From: Paracoccaceae bacterium
Lineage (GTDB): Bacteria > Pseudomonadota > Alphaproteobacteria > Rhodobacterales > Rhodobacteraceae
Reading direction: 5' to 3'
Assembly (NCBI GenBank): GCA_017854585.1
Contig: JAFMHK010000014.1
Coordinates: forward strand, 18,595-82,594
Length of the DNA stretch: 64,000 nt
The position numbers were made by a program, and so were the translations under genes. Of this stretch, positions 2,849 through 31,588 are shown one piece after another. The first letter of the stretch is position 1. The number at the start of each line of letters is the position of its first letter. Below the pieces are notes generated by a model. That model did no database searches. It worked only from the letters and a program-made list of their open reading frames with translations, and was not told where the DNA came from.

Positions 2849-3272
2849 ATGCGATACTTCCTGCTGCAAGGTTTTCGACACTCGGAACCGGGTGCGATGA
2901 CCCTGTGGTCGGTTCAATGTGGTGCATGCGTTCGGGGGGCGGCGCCGATGCTGCATTTGCTGCAGCCGACGACATCCGATGTTCAAAATCTAGACGCAGA
3001 ACCGCCGCGCCAATTGATGGAAATCAACCGGCCCCGCATCCGGCGGACTAAGCGTGAGGGCATGCACCATGCCATTTCAATCACCTTGCGGGGCATTCAT
3101 TCGACCTTGGGCTTTCCTTTTCCCGAACGGTTTCCGGCCCCTCGCGTGCGGTCTTGATCGGATGTTGCCGTTCCCGACCCGCAGATCGCGCGAACAAGGC
3201 ATGTTGGACGCGCCGCCACCCCTGCCCAGGCAAGTTCCCGCCGAGTCTTGAAACAACAGAAGAAGTGTCGCC
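2849..3272. other. Divergent intergenic region between usp and cfa
   Basis: This 424-bp stretch separates two divergently transcribed genes. The frames crossing it are short or are antisense shadows of the neighbours, with no ribosome binding site or recognisable protein. The one clear signal is the FNR-type palindrome at 3014-3027, listed separately. No terminator-like hairpin was noticed. Confidence 0.6.
3014..3027. promoter_or_regulatory. FNR/FnrL-type box TTGATGGAAATCAA
   Basis: A perfect match to TTGAT-N4-ATCAA, the consensus bound by FNR-type oxygen-responsive regulators. It lies 166 bp from the usp start (2848) and 246 bp from the cfa start (3273), inside a divergent intergenic region, so either or both promoters may use it. 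Confidence 0.75.
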
Positions 3273-22352: not shown

Positions 22353-22751
22353 TCAGCCCCAATTCGCCGACAAGGCGCGCAAGATGTCGGTTCGGCTGAT
22401 CTGGCCCACCAGTACTCCTCCCTTCACCACGGGGAACCGCCGATAAGGCCCGTCGAGGAAGACCCTTGCCGCGGCCAGAAGATCCAGATCGGGGGTGATC
22501 GTGATGACATCTGTCGACATGTAAGCTGCAACCGGCCTGCCCCAATCACGGTAATAGCTGGCTTCAAGCGCGGCCCGTAACGCATCCTTCTCCGTCAGGA
22601 TCCCGACAAGCTGGCCGTCATCATCGATGACCGGCGCACCTGAAAACCCATGATCCAGCAACACGCGGACGGCGCCGTTGATTTCCTGATCGGGCGAGAG
22701 TGTGACAGGGCTGCGAACCATGTGATCGGACACAAGGGTGAGGGTACTCAT
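22353..22751 (-). CDS. CBS-domain pair protein, last gene of the nqr operon
   Basis: A 132-residue protein made only of two CBS domains (roughly 5-60 and 72-130): VSDHMVRSPVTLSPDQEINGAVRVLLDHGFSGAPVIDDDGQLVGILTEKD and then MSTDVITITPDLDLLAAARVFLDGPYRRFPVVKGGVLVGQISRTDILRAL. Such stand-alone pairs bind adenine nucleotides and report energy state to a partner. Its ATG overlaps the nqrM stop (ATGA), tying it to the Nqr transcript. Energy-dependent control of Nqr is a hypothesis; I know of no CBS subunit of Nqr. Confidence 0.85.
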   Translation of the reverse strand: MSTLTLVSDHMVRSPVTLSPDQEINGAVRVLLDHGFSGAPVIDDDGQLVGILTEKDALRAALEASYYRDWGRPVAAYMSTDVITITPDLDLLAAARVFLDGPYRRFPVVKGGVLVGQISRTDILRALSANWG

Positions 22752-22921
22752 TCCGGGGACCGTTCGGTTGTGGCCTTGGGGCAACCGGCACATCCGCTGC
22801 CCGCCCCGCACGCAAGCCCGCCGCATGACCCCTTGATCGGACCGCGCCCCGTCAGGGTCCCGATTGCCATGCCCAGCACGGCAAGGCCAATGATCCCGAG
22901 GGAAAGGAAGAATGTGGTCAT
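22748..22921 (-). CDS. nqrM: Na+-Nqr maturation protein NqrM
   Basis: A 57-residue protein with one membrane helix (residues ~3-25, FFLSLGIIGLAVLGMAIGTL) and a cysteine-rich tail KGSCGGLACGAGSGCAGCP. NqrM is needed for assembly of Na+-Nqr and is thought to deliver iron for the Fe centre between NqrD and NqrE. Its small size and place after apbE are normal for nqr operons. The gap to apbE is 23 bases. Confidence 0.85.
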   Translation of the reverse strand: MTTFFLSLGIIGLAVLGMAIGTLTGRGPIKGSCGGLACGAGSGCAGCPKATTERSPE

Positions 22922-22944: not shown

Positions 22945-23898
22945 TCATACGACCAGATGCGACGCGAACTGACCCGTCGGGATGCTTGCGCCAGTATCGT
23001 GCGGACCAATGATGAAAAGCCCCGAAATGTTGTGCGCCCGCGCGAATGCGGGGCCTTCGCGCCCCATCGCCAACAACGCCGTTGCCAGCGCGTCCGCCTC
23101 CATTCCGGTTTCGGCAAGCACGGAAACGGACGCGGCGTAGCCCGTGGCGGGGCGGTTGTTGACCGGATCGATGACATGGCTGAGCGCCACGTCGCCCATC
23201 AGGCCATTGTGGCGATGCCCCGAGGTGGCCAACGCCAAGTCCCCCGGCGCAACGATATGGCGCACGGCAAATTCCGGTGACACCGGATCTTCGATCGCGA
23301 CGGTCCATGGCCTGCCGGATGGATGGCGGCCAACGGCGCGCAATTCGCCCCCCAATTCCAGCAAGAAATCGGTTCCACCCTGCGCGACAAGTTCATCGAT
23401 CAGACAATCCAGTGCAAACCCCTTGGCAAGGCCGCACAGATCAAGGGTCACGCCCGGCGCGGATTTGTGCAACGCGGTGCCATCCAGCGTGATCTGATCC
23501 GCGCCCCCCGGCTGGCCAACGATCGGCCCAAAGCCAAAGCGGTGCGTGATCGGGCCTGTCGTGGGGTCGAAATGACCATCCGTTGCTCGCCCCGTCGCAA
23601 GTGCCGCATCCACCACCCGTGCCATCATGTCCGGGATCACGACAACCTGACTGACATCCGCACGGTTGAACCGCGACAGATGGGACGCGGTCCGGTATGG
23701 CGACATCATGACATCAATCGCGTCGATGACCCGCGTGATGGGCGGCAAAATTGTTGCCGTGTTGGCCGTACCGGCAACCAGCCGCCACGTGCTGCCAAAT
23801 GCCCGGCCACCAAGGATCCCGGGATTGGCTTTGGCCAACGTCGGCGTCACTGTCAGGGCGAGGCTGCCAAGGATCACGCTGCGCCGGGTCAGGTCCAT
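22945..23898 (-). CDS. apbE: FAD:protein FMN transferase ApbE
   Basis: A 317-residue ApbE-family flavin transferase with an N-terminal Tat-like or Sec-like signal (LTRRSVILGSLALTVTPTLAKA). Family motifs are GSTWRL, PYRTASHLSRFN, DGHFDPTTGP, LDLCGLAKGFALD and the FAD-binding HVIDPVNNRPATGY. It attaches FMN through a phosphoester bond to Thr/Ser of the SGAT-type motif in NqrC and NqrB. In this cluster NqrC has that motif but NqrB does not, so its likely only local target is NqrC. Confidence 0.9.
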   Translation of the reverse strand: MDLTRRSVILGSLALTVTPTLAKANPGILGGRAFGSTWRLVAGTANTATILPPITRVIDAIDVMMSPYRTASHLSRFNRADVSQVVVIPDMMARVVDAALATGRATDGHFDPTTGPITHRFGFGPIVGQPGGADQITLDGTALHKSAPGVTLDLCGLAKGFALDCLIDELVAQGGTDFLLELGGELRAVGRHPSGRPWTVAIEDPVSPEFAVRHIVAPGDLALATSGHRHNGLMGDVALSHVIDPVNNRPATGYAASVSVLAETGMEADALATALLAMGREGPAFARAHNISGLFIIGPHDTGASIPTGQFASHLVV

Positions 23899-23901
23899 TG
23901 G

Positions 23902-25122
23902 TCACACTCCGAAATCGTCGTTCATGATATTGGCGGGATCGACCCCCAGATCGTCCAGCATCTTGAGAACCGCGGCGATCATCAGGGGCGGACCACACAG
24001 GTAGTATTCGCAGTCTTGCGGCGCGGGATGATCACCAAGGTATCGTTCCCGCGCGATGTCGTGGATGAACCCGGTGTCTCCGGTCCAGCCACCGTCAGGT
24101 TCGGGATCGGACAGCGCCACGGTCCACCGGAAATTGTCATGACGGGCGGCCAGTTCGTTCAGTTCCTCCACGTAATAGAGGTCGGCAATACTGCGTGCGC
24201 CATACCAGAAGCTGACTTTCCTGCGGCTTTGCTGCCGGTCCAGCACATCGAAGATCATTGCACGCAGCGGGGCCATGCCCACGCCACCGCCAAGAAAGAC
24301 CATCTCGCGCGCGGTATCTTGAATGCGAAACGTGCCGAACGGCCCCGCGATGGAAATCGCATCGCCCTGATTGACCGAGAACAGCCAAGACGACACGATC
24401 CCCGGCGGCACGCCAGACGCGCGCGGGGGCGGCAGGGCAAGCCGGATGTTCAAGACGATCCGGCCCTCCTCGGTATCACTGGGCAGGTTGGCGATTGAAT
24501 AGGCGCGGGTCACCGGTTCTGTCGTCGTGACCGAAAGGTTTCGCAGCGGCACCCATCTTTCGGCGAACCGATCGGGCACCGCGATCCGGGAATAATCAAG
24601 CGCAAAGGGCGGTGCGGTGATCTGGATAAAGGCCCCCGCGAACAGATGGGCCGCGTTGCCGGGCGGCAGGTCCAGAACGATCTCACGGATCAACGGTGTC
24701 AGTGTGGTGACCGATGCAACGCGGGCGTCATAGGCTTCCGCGGCCAACAGATCGTCACGAACGCGGACCGCCATGTCGCCACGCAACGTTACCTGACACG
24801 CCAAGTGCATTCCGGCGCGCAACTCGGCCGGTGACAGACGCGCGATTTCGACTGGTAAGGGCGGCGGGCCGTTGCCCGTGACCTGCACGCAACACAAGCC
24901 GCAGGTGCCAGCGCCCGCGCAGGCCGATGGCACCAGCACGCCATTGTCGTTCAGAATCGACAGCAGCTTGCGCCCGGTTTGTGCGGCGATCGCGTTAGTG
25001 TCATTCACCGTCAGCGTGGCGGGCCGTGACGGGACCATGATCTGGCGGGCCAGCATCACGAAGGCCGTCAGAACCAGCATGATGACCACCAACACCGCTA
25101 TGCCCAACACCATCGTCATCAT
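23902..25122 (-). CDS. nqrF: Na+-translocating NADH:quinone reductase subunit F
   Basis: A 406-residue NADH-oxidising subunit. One N-terminal membrane helix (~3-25), then a 2Fe-2S ferredoxin domain with [12 protein letters not shown] and the fourth cysteine in MHLACQV, then an FAD/NADH reductase domain with RAYSIAN (FAD), [23 protein letters not shown] (NADH) and the end [25 protein letters not shown]. Electrons enter from NADH via FAD to the 2Fe-2S centre. The start ATG overlaps the nqrE stop by four bases. Confidence 0.93.
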
Positions 25123-25718
25123 AGCGGCACCCGCGCGAATGCAGCAAAGCCCAAAGACATCAGCCCGGTCGCAAGAAAGGCGCTGGCAAGCCCGCGCACC
25201 CCTGCCGGCATATCGCTATACTGCAGGCGTTCGCGAATGGCCGCGAAGGCAACGATTGCCAAGGCCCATCCGACCCCGCCGCCAAACCCGTAAACCACGG
25301 CCTCGGGGATGGTATAGCGCCGTTCGGCCATGAACAGGCTGCCGCCCAGAACGGCGCAATTGACGGTGATCAGGGGAAGGAAACTGCCCAAGGCGACGTA
25401 GAGCTTGGGGAAAAAGCGGTCGAGCGTCATTTCCAGCACCTGAACGATGGCCGCGATCACACCGATGAAGGCCACCAGCCGCAGAAAACCAAGGTCCACC
25501 TCAGGCAGGCCCGCCCACCTCCAAGCCCCTTCGATCAGCACACCGTTCAGGATCAGGGCATTGACCGGAACCGTGATGGTCTGCACCGCAATGATGGCCA
25601 GCCCAAGGCCCACGGCGGTTTCGACCCTTTCGGACACCGCCAGAAACGTGCAGATGCCAAGGAAATACGCCAGCGCGAGGTTTTCCTGAAAGATCGCGGC
25701 GATCAACAACTCGGTCAT
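25119..25718 (-). CDS. nqrE: Na+-translocating NADH:quinone reductase subunit E
   Basis: A 199-residue, six-helix membrane subunit, the usual size for NqrE. Conserved stretches: [30 protein letters not shown] near the start and [18 protein letters not shown] in the fourth segment. The cysteines in FLGICTFLA and TVNCAVLG are the family's conserved iron ligands at the NqrD/NqrE interface. TGATG links it to nqrD. Confidence 0.93.
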
Positions 25719-26368
25719 CAGAGCCCCCGCGCTTTGGGCACGCGATGCTGCGCCGGCTCGGTCTGCTCCGGACGCACGCTTCGGACCGCCCAAACCAGCA
25801 GCCCGATGATGATGAAGGCGGCCGGGGCCAGCTGCATCAACCCAAGGGGCTGGAACCATCCGCCGTCATCTGTCGGACGCAAGATGACCACGCCCAGCAC
25901 GCTGCCCTGCCCCAGCAATTCCCGGATCGACCCGACCACCAGCAGGATCAGACTGTATCCAAGCCCGTTCCCAAGTGCATCCAGCACCGATGGCCCGACG
26001 GGATTGCGCATCGCGAACGCTTCGGCCCGGCCAAGCACGAGGCAGTTCGTGACGATCAGGCCCACAAATACCGAAAGCGTCCGGCTGAGTTCATAGGCAA
26101 ACGCCTGCATCATTTCATCGATTACGATGACAAGCGCCGCGATGATCGTGATCTGCACGATCAGCCGGATCACATGCGGAATGTGGTGGCGCAAAAGGCT
26201 GATGACGGCCGAGGAAAGGCACAAAACCGTGGTCAGCGCGACAGACATCATCAACGCGGTATCAAGCGCGGTCGTGACAGCCAATGCCGAACAGACGCCC
26301 AGAATTTGCCGGGTGATGGGGTTTTGATTGATCAGGGGGGCCGTGATCTGCGCGATTGCCTGTTTCAT
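25718..26368 (-). CDS. nqrD: Na+-translocating NADH:quinone reductase subunit D
   Basis: A 216-residue membrane subunit homologous to NqrE. It has [25 protein letters not shown] and [21 protein letters not shown], which supply the partner cysteines of the membrane Fe centre. The longer frame to 26494 runs back into nqrC; ATG at 26368 follows the nqrC stop by one base. The C-terminal tail (~15 residues, [16 protein letters not shown]) is charged and variable. Confidence 0.93.
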
Positions 26369-26369
26369 G

Positions 26370-27170
26370 TCATAACCCCTCGGTGTGAAGCCGCTGCAGG
26401 AATGGACCGAACCCATGTTCGCCAAGCCAGTATCGCAGCATGTTCGTGACGCCGTTGCCGGTCCGTGTGGCGCCGGAAATACCGTCGACTTCATAGGGTC
26501 CGCTGGCCTGCCCGCGCACTACGGCAATCACGATTTCACCGTTGTCATTGAAGACTTCATGCCCCGGCCAGAGCGCCTGCCATGCGGGATCTTCGATGCG
26601 CGCGCCAAGCCCTGCGGTTTCGCCCTGCCCCGTTATGGTCAACGCGGCCACGGTGGTCAGATCGGATTGCAGCGCGAGCAATGCGCTGATCCGGGATTGA
26701 TATCCCGTGCCGGTGACGGGCAGCACGACCAATTCAACGTCGCCATTGCGTTCCAGAATATGAACTGGTGCAAACGGCGCGCGTTGGCGCAGGCCAGCAA
26801 CATCCAGCGCGGGCGGGATTTCAACCATGGTTTCGGGATCGGCGGCGACCGCCGCCATATCGTAGTTTTCGGCATCTGCGCCCGGCACGATCCGACCGCT
26901 GGCCAAATCGACAAGGTAGGTTGAAAGGCTGTCGGCCCCTGTTTCGGCCAGCACCTCGGCCATGCCGGGCAGCGTTTCAAGCATTGCGGCCATCCGGGCC
27001 GCGCGCGCCGCCTCCAGATGCGCGGCCTGGCGGGGTTCCAGGACGATCGCGGCGCTGGACACGACCACGGCGCATCCAAGCGCCACCGCGAATGCCATTC
27101 CGACGATCTTGACCGGATCATCGTTGTCGCGCGCCAGAAAGCGCCATGCTGACGGACGGGGCTCAGCCAC
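26370..27170 (-). CDS. nqrC: Na+-translocating NADH:quinone reductase subunit C
   Basis: A 266-residue subunit with one membrane helix (~25-48) and a periplasmic FMN-binding domain. The flavinylation motif is intact: VDGISGATRTGNGV, with the target threonine near residue 235. Family stretches VVLPVTGTGYQSRISALLAL and the C-terminal WLGEHGFGPFL are present. It overlaps nqrB by 8 bases. Being intact, it is the covalent FMN carrier that ApbE would modify. Confidence 0.93.
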   Translation of the reverse strand: MAEPRPSAWRFLARDNDDPVKIVGMAFAVALGCAVVVSSAAIVLEPRQAAHLEAARAARMAAMLETLPGMAEVLAETGADSLSTYLVDLASGRIVPGADAENYDMAAVAADPETMVEIPPALDVAGLRQRAPFAPVHILERNGDVELVVLPVTGTGYQSRISALLALQSDLTTVAALTITGQGETAGLGARIEDPAWQALWPGHEVFNDNGEIVIAVVRGQASGPYEVDGISGATRTGNGVTNMLRYWLGEHGFGPFLQRLHTEGL

Positions 27171-27957
27171 GGCGCCGCTGCCGTTGCCACGCGTTGCCGG
27201 AGACGACGAGATGATCGATCAGAGGTGCCAGAATACTGGCCATCAGCGCCGCGAAAACGAGAGCCTCGGTTGTGGGAGGCGATGGTGACGACCCGCCAAA
27301 GATCCACGTCAAGCCGCCCGCCAACACGCCGTGAACGATGCGCCCCGACGGTGTGACGGCCGCGGCGGTTGGTTCGCCCACAAGGAACACCAAGGCCGCC
27401 GCCCCCGCGACGAACAGCGCCGTCGCCTCGGGCGTGGTTGCGACACCGAACGCAAGCATCACGGCGGCCAGAAAGCCAAGCACGATGAACGGGCTCAAAA
27501 GCCCGGTTACCAGCAGCAGAACCGCCCCCGGTAAACACGCAAGTGCAACCGCCGGGCTTTGGGCCGGAAACACCAGACCCGGCAAAGACAACAGCGCCAA
27601 CGCCAATGCCGCCGTGGCCGGAGACAGGAACCCATATCCGCGACCGCCAAATACACGTTCGCCGACCACAGAACCAAGTGACAAGACAACGATCAGATGC
27701 CACAGCGGGATGTCCGGTGAAACGAACACGGTCACGATTGCCGCCGTCGTGATGCCCTCGGGCGTGAATGGATGGCCGCGCAGGGCGGCAAAGACATAGT
27801 CCCAGACCAGCACCACGATGAGTGCGACAACCAGCACTCCGATAGCCGGCTCACCGGTTTGCCAGATCGTGACGGCCACGGGGGGCAACAAGGCCAAGGT
27901 CTGTATGGCGACAACCCGACCGGTGCCGCGACCATGCAGTGCGCGGGTCAGGAACAT
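27163..27957 (-). CDS. nqrB: Na+-translocating NADH:quinone reductase subunit B, short form without the FMN site
   Basis: A 264-residue membrane protein aligned to NqrB by VVGERVFGGRGYGFLSPATAALAL (the conserved FGG region), VFLVGEPTAAAVTPSGRIVHGVLAG and ASILAPLIDHLVV at the end. Vibrio NqrB has about 415 residues; here the ~60-residue N-terminal extension plus first helices are reduced and, notably, the loop with the D-G-x-S-G-A-T motif that carries covalent FMN in Vibrio is missing: after SPATAALALALLSLPGLVF the sequence goes directly to the next helices. No SGAT occurs anywhere in it. The reading frame is uninterrupted and coupled to nqrA and nqrC, so this is not a frameshift artefact. Assignment as NqrB rather than RnfD rests on position and on NqrA/C/F partners. 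Confidence 0.82.
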   Translation of the reverse strand: MFLTRALHGRGTGRVVAIQTLALLPPVAVTIWQTGEPAIGVLVVALIVVLVWDYVFAALRGHPFTPEGITTAAIVTVFVSPDIPLWHLIVVLSLGSVVGERVFGGRGYGFLSPATAALALALLSLPGLVFPAQSPAVALACLPGAVLLLVTGLLSPFIVLGFLAAVMLAFGVATTPEATALFVAGAAALVFLVGEPTAAAVTPSGRIVHGVLAGGLTWIFGGSSPSPPTTEALVFAALMASILAPLIDHLVVSGNAWQRQRRRG

Positions 27958-29138
27958 GGTGCGCCTTCCATGCGGATCTGATCCAGCACATCGCGCAGGC
28001 AGCGGCCATAATCCGTGCCACTGGTGCAGATTGCGGTCAGTGGCGCGACATCTTCCTCCAGCAAATCAAGACACCCGAGTTTGCCGCATACCTCGGCGTC
28101 ACCAATGCTGAGCGCGCGCATCAGCGGAACGGCGGGCACGTCGAATGGCAGCGCACGATCCAGTGAGCCAAGAGGGATCAGCGGTTTTGCGGTGCTGCCA
28201 TGCGGCTGTTCGTGATCGCGCGCGATGCTGGCCTCTTCGTGATGACGGCCCAGATAGCCGGCGCGACGTCCGTGCAACGCAGACCCCGATCTGAGGCACC
28301 AACCCGGTTTGACCCGTTCGCCTTTCCACAACAGACGGTCGAGGTTGACCCCAAGGGGCACTCGCACTTCGCGCGGGATATCCCACTCAGGTCGGTGGGT
28401 GGTAATGGTCCGAAAGGGATCGAACGATCCTGTCATCAGAAAGTGGCCGGCCGCGATCACATCTTGATACCCGATCGTCCAAACCTGCGCGCCCGGCGGC
28501 AGTGGGTGAACGCGCGCCATCTGTGCGCCCGCCGTCCGCCACTTGCGTCCCGGACGTCGACGATGGGTCGATATGCGGGCCGTCGAAAGGCCCTCAATCT
28601 CGGTGCCGGACGCGAGGCAAAGATGAACAGGTCCATCGGTCAATGTGGTCAACCCGTCCATTCCAGCCTCAAATTCGGCCCAACGCCCTTCCAACACACG
28701 CTCGGGGTCTGGGGCGACCGGGCTGGACGCCACGGCCGAAACCACAATTGCAGCGGGCCGCGCATCTGCATCGGGCGGGCCGCCGAACGGGCGCGCCACG
28801 AAAGCTGGCCAAAGCCCTCCGGCCAACAGGCGCGCGCGAACGTCATCACCCGGCTTGGGCAGATTGACCTGCGGGTCCGGGCCGCCGTCGTCCGGGTCGA
28901 TGACAAGGATCGCAAGGGTGCGGCGCGGGCCATAGGACAATGCAGACACCCGCCCGCGGAGCGGCGATACGAACTTGATCGCGGGCTGTCCGGCATCGTG
29001 GAACAAGATCTGCCCCTGCGCCACCAGATCGTCTTGGGCGACGTCCGCACGGATGCGCACACCGGGATAGTCCTCACCCAACAAGGCAACGGACGCGTGG
29101 GCGGTGTGTGTTGCATCGGCAAACGTGTCGCGTATCAT
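27948..29138 (-). CDS. nqrA: Na+-translocating NADH:quinone reductase subunit A
   Basis: A 396-residue soluble subunit, somewhat shorter than the ~446 of Vibrio. Recognisable blocks are VALLGEDYPGVRIRADVAQDDLVAQGQILFHDA, PAIKFVSPLRGRVSALSYGPRRTLAILVI, the central WTIGYQDVIAAGHFLMTG and the end ALSIGDAEVCGKLGCLDLLEEDVAPLTAICTSGTDYGRCLRDVLDQI. NqrA is thought to help bind quinone. It is the first gene of the minus-strand operon, 84 bases from the FNR-type box at 29223. Confidence 0.88.
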   Translation of the reverse strand: MIRDTFADATHTAHASVALLGEDYPGVRIRADVAQDDLVAQGQILFHDAGQPAIKFVSPLRGRVSALSYGPRRTLAILVIDPDDGGPDPQVNLPKPGDDVRARLLAGGLWPAFVARPFGGPPDADARPAAIVVSAVASSPVAPDPERVLEGRWAEFEAGMDGLTTLTDGPVHLCLASGTEIEGLSTARISTHRRRPGRKWRTAGAQMARVHPLPPGAQVWTIGYQDVIAAGHFLMTGSFDPFRTITTHRPEWDIPREVRVPLGVNLDRLLWKGERVKPGWCLRSGSALHGRRAGYLGRHHEEASIARDHEQPHGSTAKPLIPLGSLDRALPFDVPAVPLMRALSIGDAEVCGKLGCLDLLEEDVAPLTAICTSGTDYGRCLRDVLDQIRMEGAPCS

Positions 29139-29222: not shown

Positions 29223-29236
29223 TTGATATCCGTCAA
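29223..29236. promoter_or_regulatory. FNR-type box TTGATATCCGTCAA between nqrA and the cytochrome c gene
   Basis: One mismatch to TTGAT-N4-ATCAA. It lies almost midway between the divergent starts: its centre is about 91 bp from nqrA (29138) and 85 bp from the cytochrome (29315), so one bound regulator could serve both transcripts. Confidence 0.6.
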
Positions 29237-29314: not shown

Positions 29315-30403
29315 ATGACGTTTCACACCCCTGCCCTGATGGTCATGGCAATCGCCATGATGTTCACAACGGCCGCAATCGCGCAGGACAGCGGGGAAAG
29401 CCTTCTGACCGAGATCACCGAGGCGTGGCTGGCCTCTCGCCATGCGGACCGCTCGTCCGAAGCATTCACGCATTGGAATGAGGACGGAGAGGTGCCCGGC
29501 ACGTGTGCTGTCTGCCATTCGTCAATCGGACTGCGCGAATATCTCCAAGGTCCGATGGACACGGTGGGTATGATCGCAAGCCCGGTGATGCTGGGGTCTG
29601 TCGTTGACTGCGCCACGTGCCATTCTGCTGCGGCGGCGACGTTGACGGACGTGCCATTTCCGTCGGGTGTTCATCTGACGCTGGGACCGGGGGCGGCCGT
29701 GTGTTCGGTCTGTCATCAGGGGCGCGCGTCCACGCAAGCTGTTGACGCGGCCACTGGCGTATTGGCGCTTGATGACGTGTCAGCAGAACTTGGCTTTGTG
29801 AATTCGCACTACGCCGTGGCAGGCGCCACACAACAAGGCAGCGCGGCGCACGGCGGCTATGAATACCCCGGAAATACCTATGCCGGGCCATTCACCCATG
29901 TCGCCGAGACCACCTCGTGCATATCGTGCCATTCGCCCCACAGCCTTGAGGTCGATCTGAACAGTTGCACCGCGTGCCACAGCGGCGCTGCAAGCCCCGC
30001 CGCCATCCGCACCTCGCAGGTGGATTACGACGGCGACGGCGATATTACCGAGGGGATCGCGGACCCTATTTCGTCGCTGCATGCGCAACTGGGCACGGCC
30101 ATCGCGCGATATGCCTCAGAGGTGGCGGCGGCGCCTGTGGTCTACGCGATCGGTGCCTACCCATATTTCTTCAACGACACCAACGCCGATGGCGCTGTCT
30201 CGGACGGCGAGGCGGTGTTCCCGAACCGTTATCAAAGCTGGACGCCGCGCCTTCTGCGGGCGGCCTACAATTATCAATTCGTGGCACAGGACGGAGGGGC
30301 TTTTGCCCATAATCCGCACTACGCCCTGCAACTGCTTTACGACAGTCTGGCCGACCTTGGCGAGGCCGTCCCGGTTGACATCACGCCCTTGACCCGACCG
30401 TAG
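29315..30403 (+). CDS. Periplasmic multihaem cytochrome c with five CXXCH motifs
   Basis: A 362-residue secreted protein: signal peptide MTFHTPALMVMAIAMMFTTAAIAQ, then five CXXCH haem sites (CAVCH, CATCH, CSVCH, CISCH, CTACH) between about residues 65 and 230. The C-terminal third has no haem site but two EF-hand-like calcium loops, DYDGDGDITEG and NDTNADGAVSDGE, and the aromatic run YPYFF. I do not recognise a named family; it is a putative electron-transfer protein. GGAGG at 29303-29307 fixes the start. Divergent from nqrA and 18 bases ahead of an antiporter gene, with which it is probably cotranscribed. Confidence 0.85.
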   Translation: MTFHTPALMVMAIAMMFTTAAIAQDSGESLLTEITEAWLASRHADRSSEAFTHWNEDGEVPGTCAVCHSSIGLREYLQGPMDTVGMIASPVMLGSVVDCATCHSAAAATLTDVPFPSGVHLTLGPGAAVCSVCHQGRASTQAVDAATGVLALDDVSAELGFVNSHYAVAGATQQGSAAHGGYEYPGNTYAGPFTHVAETTSCISCHSPHSLEVDLNSCTACHSGAASPAAIRTSQVDYDGDGDITEGIADPISSLHAQLGTAIARYASEVAAAPVVYAIGAYPYFFNDTNADGAVSDGEAVFPNRYQSWTPRLLRAAYNYQFVAQDGGAFAHNPHYALQLLYDSLADLGEAVPVDITPLTRP

Positions 30404-30421: not shown

Positions 30422-31588
30422 ATGGACCCCGCCATCCTGATGATGAGCATCGGCGCCCTGTTCATTGCGGCGCTGGCCGTTGATGCACTTGGCCGGATGG
30501 TGCATATTCCGCGGGTCACGCTGCTGATGTTGCTGGGCGCTGCGTTGGGACCACCGGGTTTGAACGCCCTGCCCCAAGCGCTCTCGACTGCTCAGGATGC
30601 GTATACCGGCGTGGCCTTGACCATGGTCGCGTTCTTGCTTGGTGGGTCCTTGGAGCGTCAGGCGCTGGCGGCCCATGGGCGGGAAATTCTGGCCATTTCG
30701 ATCAGCGTGGTGTTGATATCCGCGCTTGTGGTAGGGGCGGCATTGCTTTGGGCAGGGGCGCCGATCGAGGTGGCGCTGGTCATGGCCGGGATCTCGGCGG
30801 CAACCGCACCGGCCGCGACACAGGATGTCGTGCGGCAATCGGGACGCAGAGGGCGGTTCGCGACCAATCTCTTGGGTATCGTCGCCATCGACGACGCTTG
30901 GGGTCTTTTGCTCTTCGGGCTTCTCGTCATGATCGCGGGGCTTCTTGGAGGTGGCGACGGCGCCACCGATGCCGTGCGCCATGGCCTTTGGGAAGCGGGC
31001 GGTGGCATCGCCTTGGGTCTGGCCATCGGTCTGCCCGCCTCTTACCTGACCGGGCGCCTCAAACGCGGAGAGCCATCGCTGCTCGAGGCGCTGGCCATCG
31101 TGCTGATATGTGCCGGTGCCGCACTTTATCTGGAGGTGTCATATCTGCTGGCGGGAATGACCGCGGGGGCCATCGTCGTGAACCTTGCCAAGCACCATCA
31201 TTATCCGTTCCATGAAATCGAGCGTATCGAATGGCCCTTCGTGTTGATGTTTTTCATCATGGCTGGCGGGCTGTTCGATATCGCCCTGCTGGGTCAGATC
31301 GGGTGGCTTGGTGCGGTCTATGTGATCGCCCGACTTGGCGCGCGCCTGATTGGCGGCTGGGGCGGTGCGCGCCTGTCGGGGCTTTCAGCGCGCGAGGGGC
31401 TGTTGATGGGCATGTCGCTGACCCCGCAGGCGGGCGTTGCAATCGGCATGGCGCTTGTGGCGGCGGAACGCTTTCCACAACATGGTCCGCAAATCATTGC
31501 CGTCACTGTCGCCAGCACCATCGCGTTCGAATTGACGGGGCCGCTTCTGACGCAGTTCGCCCTGACCCGCCTGCCGGACGACAACTAA
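30422..31588 (+). CDS. CPA2-family cation:proton antiporter (Kef/NhaS-like), membrane part only
   Basis: A 388-residue protein of about 12 membrane segments with the Na+/H+ exchanger fold: GRMVHIPRVTLLMLLGAALGP near the start, SAATAPAATQDVVRQSG in helix 5, and the conserved acidic pair in VAIDDAWGLLLFGLLV. Later segments (VLMFFIMAGGLFDIALLGQIGW, LTPQAGVAIGMALV) also match. It has no TrkA-N or TrkA-C domain, unlike KefB/KefC. Ion specificity is not visible; near a sodium pump it could recycle Na+. Starts 18 bases after the cytochrome gene. Confidence 0.85.
   Translation: MDPAILMMSIGALFIAALAVDALGRMVHIPRVTLLMLLGAALGPPGLNALPQALSTAQDAYTGVALTMVAFLLGGSLERQALAAHGREILAISISVVLISALVVGAALLWAGAPIEVALVMAGISAATAPAATQDVVRQSGRRGRFATNLLGIVAIDDAWGLLLFGLLVMIAGLLGGGDGATDAVRHGLWEAGGGIALGLAIGLPASYLTGRLKRGEPSLLEALAIVLICAGAALYLEVSYLLAGMTAGAIVVNLAKHHHYPFHEIERIEWPFVLMFFIMAGGLFDIALLGQIGWLGAVYVIARLGARLIGGWGGARLSGLSAREGLLMGMSLTPQAGVAIGMALVAAERFPQHGPQIIAVTVASTIAFELTGPLLTQFALTRLPDDN

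Follow-up and report, generated by a model that had tools for sequence, protein, structure and literature searches.

The nqr locus

The window, by which we mean the whole 64,000-nucleotide stretch of DNA analysed, encodes the six structural subunits NqrA-F together on its reverse strand, with NqrF and NqrA in place of RnfB and RnfC. The first gene, nqrA (27948..29138), encodes a 396 aa protein that matches PF24836 and PF05896 and lacks the segment equivalent to Vibrio 330-367, judged by alignment and by segment lengths in relatives. It is followed by a short form of nqrB (27163..27957; 264 aa, PF03116), in which a loop and the N-terminus are absent, and by nqrC (26370..27170; TIGR01938 score 159.9 against a cut-off of 144), whose product keeps the DGISGAT flavinylation site in an alignment to Vibrio NqrC, as an earlier note on this DNA had stated. 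The [2Fe-2S] cysteines are kept in the products of nqrD (25718..26368; NF006777, 289.8 against 235) and nqrE (25119..25718; TIGR01940, 275.4 against 247.55), both with starts placed by eye, and the cluster cysteines also in that of nqrF (23902..25122; TIGR01941, 434.7 against 295), for which Pfam recognises a ferredoxin domain and FAD/NADH domains. The same strand then carries an apbE flavin transferase gene (22945..23898; PF02424), an nqrM-like gene for 57 aa with a Cys cluster (22748..22921), and an operon-linked gene for a CBS-pair protein (22353..22751; PF00571) whose role may be to regulate the complex by sensing nucleotides. The complement of NqrA, C, D, E, F, ApbE and NqrM listed earlier was confirmed by family matches, except that NqrM was read from its translation by eye, on a Cys pattern that we take to be the NqrM motif.

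On the forward strand, divergent from nqrA, lies a gene for a pentahaem cytochrome c with five CxxCH motifs (29315..30403; PF14522), a conserved partner of nqrA, and an FNR-type box, TTGATATCCGTCAA (29223..29236), is found between the two. The cytochrome has a signal peptide by eye and no further transmembrane segment by hydropathy. Beside it is a gene for a Na+/H+ exchanger family protein (30422..31588, forward strand; PF00999), and some relatives have the same neighbour: the exchanger gene is directly 3′ of the cytochrome gene in the window and in L004, L007, L009, L016, L024, L039, L043, L047, L048 and L095, and follows the CBS gene instead in L019, L045 and L046. The adjacent multihaem cytochrome gene, the lost NqrB N-terminus and the lost NqrA segment had been overlooked in the earlier note.

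A short NqrB without the FMN loop

Translation of the nqrB frame (27163-27957, reverse strand) gave a protein that keeps FGG and EPTAAAVTPSGR and has no SGAT, nor any SGAT-like motif elsewhere. Aligned by phmmer to V. cholerae NqrB, its residues 44-127 correspond to 135-218 and its residues 138-263 to 277-412, and ten residues replace Vibrio 219-276, the stretch that bears T236. Its domain content is PF03116 alone, without a fused NAD-binding domain. The protein scored below the curated Na+-NQR cut-offs (86.6 against 414 and 66.2 against 349.9) and below the curated rnfD cut-off (66.5 against 207.05). NqrA likewise scored below its curated cut-offs (240.3 against 505 and 198.9 against 321.05), and further curated NqrC and NqrE models also scored the window proteins below cut-off. 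An AF2 model of the short NqrB reached a pLDDT of 90.4, and the folds closest to it were those of Vibrio NqrB and RnfD.

The same gap was found in 38 of 39 matches of a homologue search, the window's own protein counted, the 39th (P0039) being an ordinary RnfD-type protein of 336 aa. We also scanned the genomes of 84,980 species with one motif, a search that reaches only genomes with that motif, and obtained 47 loci with a short NqrB; the loop segment is 11-12 aa long in all 47, against 55 aa in 16/16 ordinary NqrB of the family. The claim that NqrB has 264 residues, an intact frame and conserved FGG and EPTAAAVTPSGR regions around a missing SGAT loop was therefore upheld by the translation, the phmmer alignment and the relatives. 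A frameshift, an assembly gap or a chance gap was ruled out by the absence of the loop from 47/47 relatives. A second, full-length NqrB as the real partner was ruled out as well, PF03116 being found in a single gene of the 94.3%-complete genome. No published report of a short NqrB was found in titles and abstract openings of the open-licence literature, and several of the short proteins are annotated, likely wrongly, as subunit B of Na+-transporting NADH:ubiquinone oxidoreductase.

All 47 loci come from alphaproteobacterial records, most of them named Rhodobacterales and nine bearing Hyphomicrobiales-type names. Cultured carriers include Boseongicola aestuarii and Yoonia maricola. To these we added a sample of 295 genomes of the family, 82 of which have PF03116: 45 with a match of the full-length class and 39 with a low-scoring one, G098 and G124 having both. 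Twenty of the 45 full-length-class loci were examined and comprised 16 Nqr and four Rnf-like loci. Four of the 39 low-scoring genomes (G004, G017, G054 and G193) have no Nqr genes at the match and were removed, leaving 35 short-Nqr genomes. The loci L086, L088, L090 and L092 have PF03116 matches without nearby Nqr genes and fall outside the short-NqrB class. In an NqrD+NqrE tree a single branch with an SH-aLRT support of 69 sets apart the 45 short rows, and another (97) sets apart the 15 ordinary rows. When 398 genomes of the phylum were searched with a profile of the short form, only three genomes gave scores above 200 bits, the window's own and two more from its family; the short protein of G185 reached 147.6, a score that ordinary proteins also attain, and short forms may thus occur elsewhere in the phylum.

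Within the 47 loci, apbE was found in 40, the nqrM homologue in 39 and the CBS-pair gene in 41, several of the apbE and nqrM absences being contig ends. The short-Nqr operons of L014 and L036 lie on long contigs, and apbE was not found in the stretch examined; flavinylation of NqrC there would need another ApbE.

Residues lost and cofactor ligands kept

We compared the 47 short NqrB with the 16 ordinary NqrB of the same family in Vibrio numbering, at quinone-site and riboflavin-ligand positions named in PMC10643135, PMC9325719 and PMC4014512. The quinone-site pair G140/G141 is present in 0/47 short and 16/16 ordinary proteins, and F159 in 1/47 and 16/16. The riboflavin-site N200 is likewise absent from all 47 and present in all 16, and N203 is kept in 17 of the 47 against 16/16. 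The rest of this site is largely retained: T162 in 40/47 (the ordinary proteins having T in 10 and S in 6), F342 in 45/47, the G198 equivalent in most, and D346 as D in 46 and E in one, where all 16 ordinary proteins have E. In 46 short loci the nqrA stop is followed by only 37-62 codons before the counterpart of Vibrio residue 135 is reached. The stretch of NqrA that spans residues 300-325 in the window's protein is 15-43 aa long (mode 32) in 46 of the short loci, where the 16 ordinary ones have 57-60 aa. Residues 330-379 of Vibrio NqrA are intertwined with NqrB 34-53 according to PMC9325719; with the NqrB N-terminus lost and this NqrA clasp shortened, both halves of the contact are reduced together.

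The input-side cofactor ligands that we examined are kept across the short clade. Each NqrF cluster cysteine is present in 44/44 proteins, the NqrD cysteine in 46/46 and the NqrE cysteines in 45/45 and 44/45 (one gap), and the flavinylated residue of NqrC, compared in 46 proteins, is T in 43 and S in the other three. As read from these residues, the predicted chain is intact to the periplasmic FMN of NqrC and then stops. The earlier note's suggestion that this is a variant Nqr whose internal electron path has been shortened agrees with this pattern: the ligands from NqrF as far as the NqrC FMN persist, while NqrB has lost FMN-B, its quinone site and some of its riboflavin site. Its further suggestion of a quinone reductase is not supported, since F159, the N-terminal stretch and both glycines of the pair are missing. 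A flavin bound non-covalently to NqrB, which it also proposed, is conceivable given the mostly retained equivalents of T162, G198, F342 and D346.

A pentahaem cytochrome linked to the operon

The cytochrome gene lies divergent beside nqrA in 36 of the 47 loci and has exactly five motifs in 35, the 36th (L037) being a weak 127-aa fragment with one CxxCH. Two loci (L021 and L045) have too little upstream sequence for this count; among the remaining 45, 35 have the pentahaem cytochrome, three (L028, L031 and L041) another multihaem cytochrome c, L025 an EB_dh protein with one CxxCH and L037 the fragment, and a multihaem gene was not found at five (L032, L035, L040, L044 and L049). L028 (5059-7350) and L031 (4405-8223) encode FAD_binding_2 proteins with Tat-like leaders, candidate terminal reductases, together with a six-CxxCH cytochrome near the short-Nqr operon, and L041 has a dehydrogenase-type FMN_dh protein beside its multihaem c.

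In the family sample the cytochrome was found in 31/35 short-Nqr genomes against 14/260 others (Fisher p 8e-27, a value overstated because the genomes are related), or in 31/39 with the four Nqr-less genomes put back. In 30 of these 31 genomes it lies less than 2 kb from the short nqr genes, and in 29 it is divergent. The pentahaem cytochrome of G013 (G013:C1:2677838-2678494) is on the nqr strand in a broken frame, and that of G158 is on another contig, beside a piece of nqrA. The four short-Nqr genomes without it have a four-CxxCH c3-type protein (L087), the EB_dh protein already described (L091, the L025 locus), a sequence that ends inside nqrB (L093) and no such gene seen (L089). No open reading frame with at least three CxxCH was present in any of the 16 ordinary nqr loci (11.6-19.5 kb each).

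The cytochrome family is broad, with 1469 matches that include multihaem proteins of 550-630 aa from Chloroflexi and other phyla. Its AF2 model was poor (pLDDT 72), Foldseek gave no match under E 1, and the best hit of a profile search against solved structures was a small cytochrome at E 0.0038. Clustering the unassigned open reading frames of the 47 loci revealed no other fixed neighbour and no shared terminal reductase: the largest clusters resemble shadow frames of nqr genes, and an ABC ATPase (14 loci) and regulators (about 10) lie at scattered distances from the operon. Codon patterns for CxxCH number 389 in the window's own genome, and the reversed pattern is found 129 times. A search of that genome for a terminal acceptor gave no PF14537 match and 26 FAD_binding_2 matches, two of which were read by eye, neither having an export signal.

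An FNR-type box upstream of the cytochrome

The motif TTGAY-N4-RTCAA, which we take to be the FNR/FnrL site consensus, was present upstream of the cytochrome in 26/36 Nqr-linked loci, the window included, and the other 10 have a box with a single mismatch, located 148-207 bases upstream of where the mature cytochrome begins. Each of five control palindromes was found at 0/36 of these loci. Upstream of nqrA the box occurs in 25/46 short loci, all 25 of them with the cytochrome, and in 0/16 ordinary loci in its strict form (2/16 with one mismatch). FNR-type motifs number 60 in 865 kb of short loci and 0 in 299 kb of ordinary loci. They are common locally in the window, with 7 against 0.22 expected from shuffles; the six further ones are at 3014, 5530, 19262, 31734, 41175 and 62589. 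A Crp/Fnr protein whose N-terminus is rich in Cys (L104) is also encoded in the genome. From these motifs we infer that the operon and the cytochrome would be under low-oxygen control.

The same cytochrome beside a different partner

The family sample also contained 15 Nqr-free copies of the cytochrome (14 genomes and a second copy in G047), all with five CxxCH. At 11 of them (L071, L073, L075-L079 and L081-L084) members of one protein family adjoin the cytochrome gene in divergent orientation. Pfam searches with four members found Ferric_reduct, FAD and NAD domains in each, presumably placing them in the class of NAD(P)H-to-outside enzymes; four of the 11 weakly match NqrF. Searching the Nqr loci for this ferric-reductase-like protein returned only NqrF and one distant frame in an ordinary locus. 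The cytochromes of the 11 loci and one unpaired copy group together in an unrooted tree, adjacent to one set of Nqr-linked copies, and the FNR-type box precedes 6/11 of them (one control 1/11) and 3/4 of the other Nqr-free copies. One of those four (L085) adjoins a nine-CxxCH protein with a Cytochrome_cB domain. The pentahaem cytochrome and the ferric-reductase-like FAD/NAD protein are apparently an electron-export pair, and that one cytochrome family adjoins two membrane machines of unrelated kinds, both NAD(P)H-oxidising, suggests electron export.

Comparison with known systems

Compared with V. cholerae Nqr, the complex described here has no FMN loop, quinone-site residues or N-terminal stretch in NqrB and a shortened NqrA, and it has a linked pentahaem cytochrome and an FNR-type box. 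It resembles the Rnf-MmcA system of Methanosarcina acetivorans in that the complex is encoded together with a multihaem cytochrome c in which no membrane segment can be identified. In M. acetivorans transfer from RnfG to the cytochrome has been proposed and Na+ transport reported (PMC4023990), MmcA is a heptahaem conduit presumed to be tethered to Rnf (PMC11024163), and an mmcA deletion strain still grew on acetate (PMC6703419). A potential SGTF motif is also reported for Methanosarcina Rnf, the NCBIfam model bearing on its RnfD is short at 285 positions, and the methanogen Rnf cytochrome is described as absent in ANME-2c in PMC9012536, which makes no mention of RnfD. The archaeal system differs in taking its input from ferredoxin via RnfB and in having RnfC, and MmcA, heptahaem and OTR-related, differs from the pentahaem cytochrome. 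Two-subunit Nqr/Rnf-like complexes, for which unidirectional electron export has been proposed (PMC11334425, PMC8238504), share an NqrB-like subunit without a flavinylation site; theirs is an NqrB-like domain fused to a NAD-binding domain and accompanied by one FMN subunit, whereas NqrF is separate here. A likeness to ferric-reductase-like or NOX-type NAD(P)H flavocytochromes lies in the Nqr-free loci, where such a family (four members tested) adjoins the same cytochrome; unlike Nqr, these are unrelated single proteins without Nqr subunits.

Proposed function and alternatives

Because the loop, the GG pair and the N-terminal stretch are lost while the ligands examined as far as the NqrC FMN are kept, we think it probable that the complex is a one-way Nqr that acts as an NADH:periplasmic cytochrome c oxidoreductase. 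By homology, electrons would pass from NADH to the FAD and [2Fe-2S] cluster of NqrF, to the [2Fe-2S] cluster of NqrD/E and to the FMN of NqrC; that they would continue to the pentahaem cytochrome and on to periplasmic acceptors is suggested by the linked genes, the partner swap and the loss of a way back. We infer this outward direction from the partners only. NqrB would remain as a predicted scaffold of roughly ten helices on which NqrC docks, and the complex could relieve the cell of surplus NADH in parallel with complex I, of which NuoH is encoded in the genome. The retention of half of the riboflavin pocket weighs against export, as it would be unexpected if NqrB carries no flavin. Also counting against it are the five loci at which no multihaem gene was found and the two that have only a one-CxxCH protein or fragment, the failure to find a terminal acceptor in the genome among the matches read, the breadth of the cytochrome family and its poor model, and the local abundance of the FNR-type motif.

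Export of electrons alone would cost membrane potential, and a cation must leave too if that cost is to be avoided; as a conjecture, one Na+ per electron, for example via NqrD/E, would make export electroneutral. A half-circuit Nqr that still pumps in this way, with electroneutral co-export of Na+ and electrons at low oxygen, is a tentative proposal that we hold with clearly less confidence than export itself. It bears on two models of the Na+ route, both summarised in PMC12174285: in one, Na+ crosses NqrB under the gating of FMN-B (Hau et al. 2023), and in the other, put forward for Rnf, it crosses a dimer of the NqrD/E type (Kumar et al. 2025). Two of the three Na-1 ligands given in PMC12174285 (A263, V275 and V332), the backbone ligands A263 and V275, fall in the deleted NqrB stretch; with these and the FMN-B loop absent, pumping by this complex, or none, would discriminate between the models.

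It is rather unlikely that NqrB instead binds a flavin non-covalently at the riboflavin site and passes electrons from the NqrC FMN through it to quinone or another acceptor. The equivalents of T162, G198, F342 and D346 are mostly kept, as is N203 in a minority, and for Nqr/Rnf-like complexes that also have no flavinylation site PMC11334425 suggests that the extracytosolic FMN may sample a non-covalent site; N200, however, is missing throughout, the quinone site has lost its glycines and F159, the N-terminal stretch is gone, the NqrA clasp is shortened, and the linked cytochrome would be left unexplained. Less likely still is reverse electron transport, in which a periplasmic donor would feed the pentahaem cytochrome, NqrC, NqrD/E and NqrF to reduce NAD to NADH. 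The cofactors are reversible in principle and the FMN_dh protein of L041 is of dehydrogenase type, but the swapped copies have ferric-reductase-like NAD(P)H proteins as their partners, two loci have reductase-like FAD_binding_2 proteins, and inward electron flow runs against the membrane potential. A decaying, non-functional Nqr, which the large losses in NqrB and NqrA might suggest, is most improbable given intact frames in many genera and conservation of one gap length, the cofactor ligands, the promoter box and the partner gene.

If the export reading holds, these bacteria would provide a natural Nqr rewired from quinone reduction to electron export, with its outlet cytochrome identified. 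If half-circuit pumping were also true, FMN-B, the NqrB Na+ site and quinone would be dispensable for redox-driven Na+ pumping.
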